From: Planctomycetota bacterium
GTDB taxonomy: Bacteria > Planctomycetota > Planctomycetia > Planctomycetales > Planctomycetaceae
Length of the DNA stretch: 42,309 nt
Direction of reading: 5' to 3'
Assembly: GCA_018242565.1 (NCBI GenBank)
Contig: JAFEBR010000395.1
Location: 1-42,309 of the forward strand
Numbering within the stretch: position 1 is the first letter of the stretch; the number at the start of each line of letters is the position of its first letter. A program made the translations under genes and the position numbers. This document shows, piece by piece, positions 37,616 through 40,861 of this stretch. Below the pieces are notes generated by a model that had not been told where the DNA came from, searched no databases, and saw only the letters and a list, made by a program, of their open reading frames with translations.

Positions 37616-38299
37616 TCACTCCTCTTCGCCCCACCGCTTAAACAATCGGTGGGCGATCCCCAGGTGATCGCAGATGCGACCGACAACGAAGTCGACCAGG
37701 TCCTGAATCGATCGCGGGGTGTGATAAAACCCAGGCATCGCCGGCATGATCGTGGCCCCGGCATCTGCCAGTCGTTTCATGTTCTCTAACTGAATGCTCG
37801 ACAGTGGCGTTTCACGCGGGACCAGAATCAGCTTGCGCCGCTCCTTCAGATGGACGTCCGCCGCCCGTTGAATCAGGTTTTCGGAATGTCCACCCGCGAT
37901 ACTCGCCAGCGTCCCCATCGAGCAGGGGCAGATCACCATCCCCGACGTCAGAAACGAACCGCTGGCAATTCCGGCTCCAAAATCCTCGTAGTGATGGTAC
38001 ACGAGCGACCCGGCGGTGGTCTCGGCAAACACCGAACTCAAATCCGAAAACGACGAACGATCGGGAGCCAGCGTCCGCAAGGCGCTGTCCGATGCCAAGT
38101 CCCCTTCGTCCGGCAGCAACTGGTGGATCTTAAAGTTCTTGAGGTCGACTCGAATGCCGAGTTCACGGTCGAGCACGAGCACGGCCGATTTGCTGATCGT
38201 CAGATGGACGCGACAACCCGCCGCCAACAGGATTTCCAGCAGACGCACGGCGTAAATCGAACCACTGGCGCCCGTCATGGCCACAACAATATTCTGCAT
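37616..38299 (-). CDS. ubiX: Flavin prenyltransferase UbiX
   Basis: A 227-residue enzyme that makes prenylated FMN, the cofactor of UbiD-family decarboxylases. Conserved blocks are MTGASGSIYAVRLLEILLAA (FMN-binding), ASGSFLTSGMVICPCSMGTL, LIQRAADVHLKERRKLILVP and PGFYHTPRSIQDLVDFVV. The region between the second strand and the ASGSF block is about 30 residues longer than in the shortest homologues (DEGDLASDSALRTLAPDRSS). Two ATGs are present. The GGAGA is too close to the ATG at 38303-38305 but well spaced for the one at 38297-38299, giving MQNIVVAMTGASGS. It follows menG by 33 bp on the same strand, and a ubiD-like gene lies further upstream. Confidence 0.95.
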   Translation of the reverse strand: MQNIVVAMTGASGSIYAVRLLEILLAAGCRVHLTISKSAVLVLDRELGIRVDLKNFKIHQLLPDEGDLASDSALRTLAPDRSSFSDLSSVFAETTAGSLVYHHYEDFGAGIASGSFLTSGMVICPCSMGTLASIAGGHSENLIQRAADVHLKERRKLILVPRETPLSSIQLENMKRLADAGATIMPAMPGFYHTPRSIQDLVDFVVGRICDHLGIAHRLFKRWGEEE

Positions 38300-38332
38300 C
38301 GACATTCTCCGCGATAATTCCCTGACGTCGCG

Positions 38333-39076
38333 TTATTTCTCGCCGATGTACAGCGTCGCGATTCCAAAGGTCAGCGGAGTGAAGCTCACGGATCGCAAAC
38401 CACATTCGCGCATCAACGCGGCCAGGCGCTCGCCATAGGGAAACTCCGAAACCGAATCAGGTAGATAGTTGTAGGCCTGATGACTGTTCCGGGCGAGGAG
38501 TTGGCCGATTTTCGGCAGCACGTTGCGGAAGTACCAGGTGTACAGTCCCCGCAACAGACGGTTCGAGGGCAACGAGAATTCCAGGACGACGACCCGCCCG
38601 CCCGGCTGGCACACTCGAATCATCTCTTTGAGACCCCGGGCCGTGTTGGTCACATTCCGCAGTCCGAACGCCACACTCACGATCTGGAACTGGGCATCGG
38701 GAAAGGGGAGTAACTGCGTGTCCGCCTGCACGAATTCGAGTAGGGCCCCGTCGACAGCGGCCTGCTGCTGCAGTTGCGACTTTTGCTCGGCGATAACGAG
38801 CATTTCCCCGGTGAAGTCAGCCCCGACGACCGGAATTCGGCCCTGCCCTTTTTTCCAATACGCCAGCGCCAGATCGCCGGTACCCGTACAGACATCCAGA
38901 ATTGGAGCGGAACCCTCGGGAGCCGCCATGCGCACCGTACGCCAACGCCAATACCAGTCGGTCCCTCCCGAGAGAAAGTGATTCAGGAAGTCATACCGGG
39001 GCGAAATCTCGCCAAACATTCGGCGAATTCGCGCTTCGGACTTATCGACAGCCGGCGATTCAACCACTTCAGGCAT
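38333..39076 (-). CDS. menG: Demethylmenaquinone methyltransferase MenG/UbiE
   Basis: A 247-residue class I methyltransferase for the last C-methylation of menaquinone (UbiE in ubiquinone makers). Motifs: RMFGEISPRYDFLNHFLSGG near the N-terminus, ILDVCTGTGDLALAYWKKG (motif I), QIVSVAFGLRNVTNTARGL and GGRVVVLEFSLP, with the C-terminal YLPDSVSEFPYGERLAALMR typical of UbiE/MenG. Menaquinone is the expected quinone in planctomycetes, so menG is preferred as symbol. The ATG at 39074-39076 is chosen because the longer frame adds an atypical leader. The ribosome-binding site is weak. It lies between the ubiD-like gene and ubiX, all on the minus strand. Confidence 0.95.
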   Translation of the reverse strand: MPEVVESPAVDKSEARIRRMFGEISPRYDFLNHFLSGGTDWYWRWRTVRMAAPEGSAPILDVCTGTGDLALAYWKKGQGRIPVVGADFTGEMLVIAEQKSQLQQQAAVDGALLEFVQADTQLLPFPDAQFQIVSVAFGLRNVTNTARGLKEMIRVCQPGGRVVVLEFSLPSNRLLRGLYTWYFRNVLPKIGQLLARNSHQAYNYLPDSVSEFPYGERLAALMRECGLRSVSFTPLTFGIATLYIGEK

Positions 39077-39379
39077 AAGGCAACATCGAAATTCGAATTG
39101 ATGAAACAACGATACAAAACGCACACAGGTGACTCACATTGGCCGTTTTCGAGCCCACGCCGCGCACGCATGAGTGAGCTGTATTCTAGGCAGTTACTCC
39201 GCCTGAAAGCGACAGCGGCGCTGATTTCCACGCGCGCTCGCACGCTCACCAGTAGCGGAACCGTATCCAGCACGGCCCATTAACGCGGCGTACCCGCAGC
39301 AACAGCGATGCCAAACGTCAAACCCACGGGTCGTGGCACGGCGTCGGTGACACCAACGGCGACCGAGCCTGCGCACGGA
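39077..39379. other. 303-bp gap between ubiD-like gene and menG
   Basis: No gene is seen here on either strand. The gap is long for an operon, so menG-ubiX may have their own promoter within it. I found no convincing consensus match or hairpin. Confidence 0.4.
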
Positions 39380-40861
39380 TCACGTTGCGGGCTCTGTCGG
39401 CAGGCGGCCCAATCCGTATTGTGCCCAGCGATTCGTCACCAGATCCTTAATTTCGCCGGGCATCACGAGGTCACCAGGCCAGGGCCGGGGATGGGCTTCT
39501 TCCGGAAACTTCGCCGTCGCATCGATACCCATCGGCTGTCCGACCCCTTCCACCGGAGCCGCGTGGTCGGCGGCATCGGTCGGCACCGAGTTGAACACGA
39601 CATCGCGTCCCGGGTGAACATTCGAAGCCACACGAAACCAGACCTGGTGTTCGTCTTGAACGTCAACATGTTCATCCACGATCACCACGATCTTCGCCAT
39701 CAGCGTGGGCCACAATCCCCAGAGTGCATTGAGAACTTTTCGGGCCTGCTGCGGATAGGTTTTGCGGATACTGACAAACAGCATCTGCCGTCCGCCGCCG
39801 GCTTGCGGAAAGTTGTAATCCACGAACTCGGGAATCGCCGCTTTGACTAATGGCAGAAAGATGCGTTCGCACGCTTTATTGATCCAATAGCATTCGGTGG
39901 GCGGGATGCCGAAGACGGTCGTCGGATAAATCGGGTTGGCGCGCTGAGTCACGGCGGTAATGTGGTAGACCGGGCACAGGCGGGGGACCGAGTAATAACC
40001 CGTCGGACCGCCATACGCGCCATCCATCTGCCAGGGTTCTGTGGGATCGACGTACCCTTCCAGCACAATCTCGGCGTTCGCCGGGACTTCCATGTCGATC
40101 GAGCGGCATTTCACCAGATCGCACGGCGCTCCGCGCAACAGGCCGGCCAGCAGGAAGGGATCAGATTCCGGAAGCCGGGGCGCGAACGCCATCAGGGGGA
40201 AGGCCGGATCGCCTCCAAAAGACACCGCGATCGGCATCTGAATGCCCAGCTTTTTGAACTCCACAAAATCGTGCCAGGCTTCCTGCTGTCGATGCCAGTG
40301 AATCAGACACGAATTCGTATCATGTACCGGCAAGTGAAAATTCCCGGCATGACGTACGCCCGTCGCGGGATGACGGGTCAACACCTGCCCGAACGAAATA
40401 CTTCGCGCGGCGTCACCGGGCCAGTTCTTCAACACCGGGAATTCGGTCAAATCCACATCCCGCCCCAGTTTCACCACCTGCTGGCAGGCGGCGGTCCGGA
40501 CGGCACGTGGAACGAATTTGGAGGCCCCGGCAGCCGTCGGAACCAGTTTGAGTTTGTCGAGCCAGCCTTCCGCGGACTGGGGTTTCAGCAACTCAGGAAT
40601 TCGCTCAGCAACGTCGGCAAACGATTTGGCCCCCAATGCCCGCAATAAGCGCTTGTGCGACCCCAACAGGTTGACCAGCACTGGCAGGGTGCTGCCTTTA
40701 ACATTTTCGAAAAACAACGCGGGACCACCGCGCGGCCGCTTCGAAATGCGATCGGCGATTTCGGTGATTTCCAGAACCGGATCGACCTCGGCAGAAACCC
40801 TGACGAGTTCGCCATCATCCTGCAGTTCGTTCAGAAAATCAGAGAGGTTTTCGTAAGCCAT
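39380..40861 (-). CDS. UbiD-family protein with altered catalytic triad
   Basis: A 493-residue protein, the same length as E. coli UbiD and similar throughout: SDFLNELQDDGELVRVSAEV, GGPALFFENVKGSTLPVLVN, EVPANAEIVLEGYVDPTEPW and GVGQPMGIDATAKFPEE. UbiD enzymes use prenylated FMN to decarboxylate aromatic acids; with ubiX and menG nearby, a menaquinone (futalosine-type) or related role is the simplest inference. The catalytic Arg-Glu-Glu triad is not visible: the block usually reading G-[IM]-Y-R has His176 (HAGNFHLPV), and the usual E-G-P-[FY]-G-[ED] reads DGAYGG (Asp280, Gly285). The following GGA segment is also changed to QEA. The fold is certain; decarboxylase activity is doubtful. No symbol is given for that reason. 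Confidence 0.85.
   Translation of the reverse strand: MAYENLSDFLNELQDDGELVRVSAEVDPVLEITEIADRISKRPRGGPALFFENVKGSTLPVLVNLLGSHKRLLRALGAKSFADVAERIPELLKPQSAEGWLDKLKLVPTAAGASKFVPRAVRTAACQQVVKLGRDVDLTEFPVLKNWPGDAARSISFGQVLTRHPATGVRHAGNFHLPVHDTNSCLIHWHRQQEAWHDFVEFKKLGIQMPIAVSFGGDPAFPLMAFAPRLPESDPFLLAGLLRGAPCDLVKCRSIDMEVPANAEIVLEGYVDPTEPWQMDGAYGGPTGYYSVPRLCPVYHITAVTQRANPIYPTTVFGIPPTECYWINKACERIFLPLVKAAIPEFVDYNFPQAGGGRQMLFVSIRKTYPQQARKVLNALWGLWPTLMAKIVVIVDEHVDVQDEHQVWFRVASNVHPGRDVVFNSVPTDAADHAAPVEGVGQPMGIDATAKFPEEAHPRPWPGDLVMPGEIKDLVTNRWAQYGLGRLPTEPAT

Follow-up and report, generated by a model that had tools for sequence, protein, structure and literature searches.

We found that a UbiD homologue of 493 aa, encoded on the minus strand at positions 39380..40861 of the window (the whole stretch of 42,309 nucleotides of planctomycete DNA that was analysed), keeps the N-terminal, prFMN-binding and C-terminal UbiD domains around a dismantled active site. 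Judging from sequence comparisons, the explanation that we favour, with modest confidence, is that this protein is a pseudoenzyme of the UbiD family, retained because it serves the futalosine-type synthesis of menaquinone (vitamin K2) in some way other than by decarboxylation, that reaction having passed to a second, longer UbiD of the same genome. The components of this explanation differ in strength: the window protein very probably lacks decarboxylase activity, the long UbiD is likely to have taken the reaction over, and an accessory role in the menaquinone pathway is put forward tentatively. The ~490-aa homologues are called class B and the long ones class A below.

The open reading frame at 39380-40861 starts with ATG and is intact over the full length of a UbiD homologue. 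The Pfam domains PF20695, PF01977 and PF20696 occur in this order with 188, 117 and 86 bits, all above their cut-offs, and together with the UbiD fold they place the protein in the UbiD superfamily. Among solved structures, E. coli UbiD is its best match (E 1e-91). An AlphaFold2 model, computed from the window sequence and sequences of related loci, has a mean pLDDT of 90.2 and a TM score of 0.87/0.93 against E. coli UbiD (5m1d_C). With TIGR03701, the SCO4490/MqnL equivalog profile, the window protein scores 432.1 bits, below the curated cut-off of 495.9, and an intact orthologue from the same genus (L036) scores 615.1 bits, above it. A frameshift or assembly artefact was rejected as the cause of the degenerate site, because the reading frame has no break and 88 other genomes show the degenerate site too.

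A sequence-only reading of this DNA had placed His176, Asp280 and Gly285 at the catalytic Arg-Glu-Glu positions, with a nearby segment reading QEA; alignment with E. coli UbiD and with the orthologue from another species of the window's genus (genome G294, L036/L091) recovered exactly these residues. The orthologue is 66-67% identical to the window protein and aligns with it almost without gaps, so the active-site alignment is secure. It has the standard motifs NVGMYR and EGPFGDHTG; its NVGMYRLQV is aligned to HAGNFHLPV in the window protein, and its TEGPFGDHTGFYS to MDGAYGGPTGYYS. His176 (40334..40336) stands in place of the catalytic Arg (Fdc1 Arg173), Asp280 (40022..40024) in place of Glu (Fdc1 Glu277) and Gly285 (40007..40009) in place of the Asp/Glu that donates the proton (Fdc1 Glu282; PMC5818171), all on the minus strand, as are the residues below. 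The Glu-Arg-Glu/Asp network of prFMN-dependent UbiD decarboxylases is absent from the protein, while its relatives have Arg, Glu and Asp/Glu. A misalignment hiding an intact Arg or Glu was ruled out by the nearly gap-free alignment of same-genus and family orthologues.

The loss goes further than was first proposed and extends to His171 (40349..40351) and Pro235 (40157..40159), which replace an invariant Asn and an invariant Glu. Asn has a fraction of 1.00 in intact and 0.06 in degenerate proteins, and Glu of 1.00 and 0.02. We take these two positions to be Mn2+/prFMN-phosphate ligands, by analogy with Fdc1 and E. coli UbiD, and on this assignment the ligand residues are missing from the window protein. 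The prFMN phosphate is held by two metal ions (PMC8988006). At 39569..39571 an otherwise invariant Leu, the probable counterpart of Leu439 in Fdc1 (for Leu439, see PMC8379154), has become Ala431. At the metal-His position the window protein has Gln, which is uninformative because 12/77 intact relatives share it; a supposed ligand loss at this His and at the Glu/Asp site guessed first was dropped, as intact relatives vary there and the Glu that matters is at residue 235 of the window protein.

Mutants of Fdc1 give a measure of these changes. An acidic residue is needed at both 277 and 282, with E277D and E282D partly active and E282Q inactive, and the R173A mutant is impaired in the oxidative maturation of its cofactor (PMC5818171). 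Since Glu277 to Asp is tolerated but Glu282 to Gln kills activity, the damage comes from Gly285 and His176; an enzyme could tolerate Asp280 on its own, but should not tolerate His176, Gly285 and probable metal-ligand loss together. Other residues are conserved in the degenerate proteins. Arg358 (39788..39790), which aligns with an Arg of HmfF, is newly conserved in 74/88 of them, with His in intact relatives; the site of Asp150 (40412..40414) is acidic (Asp/Glu) in 88/88, and Arg253 is present in about 98%.

The degenerate state is a property of the family rather than of one genome, a condition that the sequence-only reading had missed. We sampled 170 genomes of the window's family, including records labelled Planctomycetaceae, Planctomycetales and Planctomycetia, and counted class B at E<=1e-40; 97 genomes had a match and about 73 had none, so class B is not universally needed. 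The 93 proteins of at least 450 aa, nearly all with full-length frames, were scored at five sites (Asn171, Arg176, Glu235, Glu280 and Asp/Glu285). Four were intact at all five (G294, G310, G295 and G338) and 89 were degenerate, one of them only partly. This one, from G337 (L095), reads SREAD and keeps three of the five sites, Arg and Asp among them, with Asn changed to Ser and Glu to Ala; it appears to be an intermediate state, and a long UbiD is also present in its genome. Apart from G337 and the intact four, 80/88 proteins retain none of the five sites. Pro occupies the Arg site in 72/89 degenerate proteins and the ligand-Glu site in 60/89, and the remaining sites are very mixed; positions 280 and 285 in particular hold many different residues with no single conserved substitute. 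The probable Mn2+/prFMN-phosphate ligands are retained in 2-4/89.

All 77 relatives outside the family's degenerate members keep Asn/Arg/Glu/Asp. They come from a comparison set of 80 relatives from a separate public collection, in which only G337 and G311, both of the window's family, deviate; in these samples the degenerate state is therefore confined to the window's family. In no family genome searched did we see an intact class B together with a degenerate one. About 89 species-level genomes carry a UbiD copy that is predicted to be unable to decarboxylate, usually beside menG and ubiX. UbiDs are routinely annotated by homology, and automatic annotation would label these copies as menaquinone decarboxylases.

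The degenerate proteins have evolved fast since the loss of the catalytic residues, under strong constraint. The cleanest evidence comes from two same-genus pairs, each compared with an outgroup, in which class B is sped up only in the degenerate member: private replacements number 127:16 between the window genome (G000) and G294 (p 1.7e-20) and 77:17 between G337 and G338 (p 6e-10). For menG the ratios are 14:10 and 15:6, with one marginal p of 0.05 that is gone with another outgroup, and for ubiX they are 12:9 and 12:14, with no acceleration. Across 19 degenerate class B pairs, dN/dS ranges from 0.036 to 0.124 (median 0.064), and the same method gives 0.05 for class A, 0.043 for ubiX and 0.027 for menG. 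When neutral evolution was simulated up to the 127 replacements of the window lineage, 0.45% of runs were free of a stop codon. Degenerate class B is under strong purifying selection and is not decaying, as read from these sequence comparisons. In addition, 31 positions are conserved at >=90% in intact and degenerate proteins alike. Loss is concentrated in the prFMN domain, where 13/39 invariant sites are lost in the degenerate clade, against 0/8 in the N-terminal domain; invariant sites are retained at a mean of 0.54 in the prFMN domain, 0.70 in the C-terminal domain and 0.83 in the N-terminal domain. Loss of catalytic residues combined with purifying selection is what defines a pseudoenzyme, and the window protein fits this description, its inactivity being a prediction.

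The absence of another UbiD from the window, as stated earlier, was correct, and the proposed search of the genome for a canonical copy found one. This class A protein of ~610 aa has all catalytic residues, with the motifs NLGMYR, LSELTFAG and EGPFGDHLGYY, and is the only other UbiD of the genome. Its gene is interrupted in the assembly, with one part at an end of contig C699 and the other at an end of C1124 (L231, L232), and annotation of this assembly would show two UbiD fragments plus one full-length dead UbiD. Contamination is an unlikely source, with a GC content of 0.604 against 0.595 for the window and G337 as the closest sampled relative.

Class A was found in 154/170 family genomes and in 84/89 genomes with a degenerate or partial class B, but in none of the four genomes whose class B is intact (completeness 95, 95, 90 and 66%). 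These counts are not independent events, because the species are related, and the absence from G338 is weak because that genome is only 66% complete. Class A was not found in five degenerate-class-B genomes either (G264, G273, G306, G350 and G398; completeness 76-93%), probably owing to assembly gaps. In the class A tree, the proteins of G000, G337, G311 and G399/G396 form one clade, which would fit descent with loss of class A in the sister species; gain of class A in G000 and G337 is a possible alternative. In other planctomycete families (f25 and f42, e.g. G047 and G066), UbiD matches with 36-41% identity to the window protein lie in open frames of ~620-700 aa.

The gene neighbourhood points to menaquinone synthesis. 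The assignment of the neighbours as ubiX and menG was borne out by profile matches: the next downstream gene, codirectional with class B, encodes a menG/ubiE-type methyltransferase (38333..39124, minus strand; TIGR01934, 238.5 bits), and downstream of it, also codirectional, lies a gene for a ubiX-type, MqnM-like flavin prenyltransferase (37616..38305, minus strand; TIGR00421, 219.6 bits). UbiX profiles align to two separate stretches of the 229-aa ubiX product, which suggests an insertion of ~40 residues in its N-terminal half, roughly at residues 55-98; its C-terminal motif KERR...PRETP looks normal. Among the 82 loci with enough downstream sequence, menG lies on the same strand within 3 kb of class B in 64, and in the other 18 class B is no longer linked to menG and ubiX. 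In profile searches of the window's own genome, MqnC was present above its cut-off and no MenD above its cut-off was found, so the futalosine route is the one that makes menaquinone here. The late steps of this route have been assigned by comparative genomics to MqnP, MqnL (UbiD-type) and MqnM (UbiX-type) (PMC4746308), and this genome has what is expected of SCO4490/MqnL, the futalosine pathway together with menG and ubiX next to class B. A second radical-SAM protein (~350 bits, below the MqnC cut-off; C920 in this genome), possibly MqnE, accompanies MqnC in nearly every genome tested. Evolutionary distances of class B correlate with those of class A when menG is controlled for (r 0.37); the mirror-tree signal for a complex of the two is positive but nonspecific, because the correlation of class B with menG given class A is r 0.72.

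Several other explanations have to be weighed. The sequence-only reading had offered three: a different prFMN reaction, an alternative acid, or a paralogue that acts structurally or in regulation, the true decarboxylase being encoded elsewhere. The last is well supported by the intact second UbiD and by the family-wide co-occurrence. The first is disfavoured because the probable cofactor ligands are lost as well, and the second because no one conserved substitute occurs at positions 280 and 285. A non-canonical prFMN decarboxylase or carboxylase using His176 or Asp280 as substitute groups seems highly improbable: Asp is a tolerated replacement for Fdc1 Glu277 (PMC5818171), His176 could bind a carboxylate and ubiX is adjacent, but Gly285 and the missing probable ligands stand against catalysis, non-polar residues such as Pro and Ala fill positions 176 and 280 in relatives, and the genome has a canonical UbiD. 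An enzyme of new function, whose pocket now centres on Arg358 and the acidic residue 150 and serves prFMN-free catalysis or binding, in or outside quinone metabolism, is unlikely but deserves more weight. Conservation of Arg358, of the acid at 150 and of Arg253 and the strong purifying selection agree with it, as does retention of the gene in lineages that lost the linkage to menG and ubiX, and the newly or still conserved Arg358 and acidic 150 leave room for a new activity. However, the former catalytic sites vary widely instead of sharing one new set of residues, constraint has been lost mainly in the cofactor domain, and a structural part seems to suit Pro176 and Pro235 better than a catalytic one. 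A redundant gene in slow, functionless decay would explain the redundancy with the long UbiD, the ~73/170 family genomes without a class B match, the great variability of the former active site and the fast evolution after catalytic loss. The low dN/dS already makes such a relic improbable, and the full-length frames, the lack of any stop codon in the window lineage even with more than 120 replacements and the 31 positions conserved in both classes are further points against it.

A different question concerns origin, and its answer is compatible with a pseudoenzyme. Degenerate class B and the four intact proteins could be ancient paralogues or horizontally exchanged copies, the pseudoenzyme having arisen once and the window copy being inherited; we regard this as possible, though doubtful. 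A large quick tree groups the window protein with all other degenerate proteins (support 89), the window protein shares Pro235 and Gly357-Arg358 with the main degenerate clade, and the AU test leaves a single degenerate clade unrejected (p 0.14). Against this, a careful 25-row tree pairs the window protein with that of G294 (80/97), intact and degenerate class B were never seen in one genome, and G337 represents a separate, partial loss within the genus of the intact G338. Catalysis may have been lost once or repeatedly; the tentative count of independent losses is at least two (G337, and the window or the main clade), and possibly three.

In the pseudoenzyme explanation that we prefer, class B would descend from a decarboxylase of the futalosine pathway that resembled SCO4490/MqnL and whose gene lay with menG and ubiX. 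The longer UbiD, with its complete catalytic residues, would have made class B redundant as a decarboxylase, and class B would then have lost the triad and the probable prFMN/Mn2+ ligands, keeping its fold and, mostly, its operon position. Today class B would most likely assist the final steps towards menaquinone, as part of a complex or as a binder of carboxylated prenyl-naphthoate, and the long UbiD would decarboxylate with prFMN made by UbiX. A helper role in menaquinone synthesis is the most economical guess, drawn from the gene company and from the precedent of UbiD helpers. The more specific proposal, that across the family the dead UbiD binds carboxylated prenyl-naphthoate, possibly through Arg358, or acts as a scaffold that brings the long UbiD, MenG and UbiX together, is speculative and rather less probable.

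If true, quinone biosynthesis would include a pseudoenzyme with the UbiD fold, a case for which we found no description; in the literature searched, neither a clade of dead UbiDs nor planctomycete UbiD was the subject of any paper, which is weak evidence, most subscription journals being outside that literature. The same-genus pairs of intact and dead proteins provide a natural experiment on a UbiD scaffold once catalysis has been taken over. It can now be tested which UbiD performs the late futalosine decarboxylation in planctomycetes, and whether UbiD activation uses a UbiD-fold helper.

Among known systems, SCO4490/MqnL (TIGR03701) is the best NCBIfam family of the window protein and shares its gene company (menG and ubiX) and the futalosine pathway, whereas the window protein falls below the equivalog cut-off and lacks the Arg, the proton donor and the probable Mn2+ ligands. 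E. coli UbiD (PDB 2idb, 5m1b-5m1e) is 35% identical over the whole length and close in predicted fold, but has Asn, Arg, Glu and Asp where the window protein has His, His, Asp and Gly. Fdc1 of A. niger shares the fold and the domain order; the window protein combines changes at sites where E282Q alone is dead and R173A impairs cofactor maturation. Phenylphosphate carboxylase alpha/beta (TIGR02723/TIGR02724) offers a case of UbiD-type chains in one complex, although these profiles match the window protein weakly, with 106-122 bits, far below their cut-offs of 564.6 and 469. For non-catalytic UbiD helpers encoded nearby, the precedents are VdcD, an integral partner of VdcC (PMC8379154), and LpdD, a prFMNH2-binding chaperone (PMC10865409); these have small, unrelated folds, whereas the candidate helper in the window is itself a dead UbiD.
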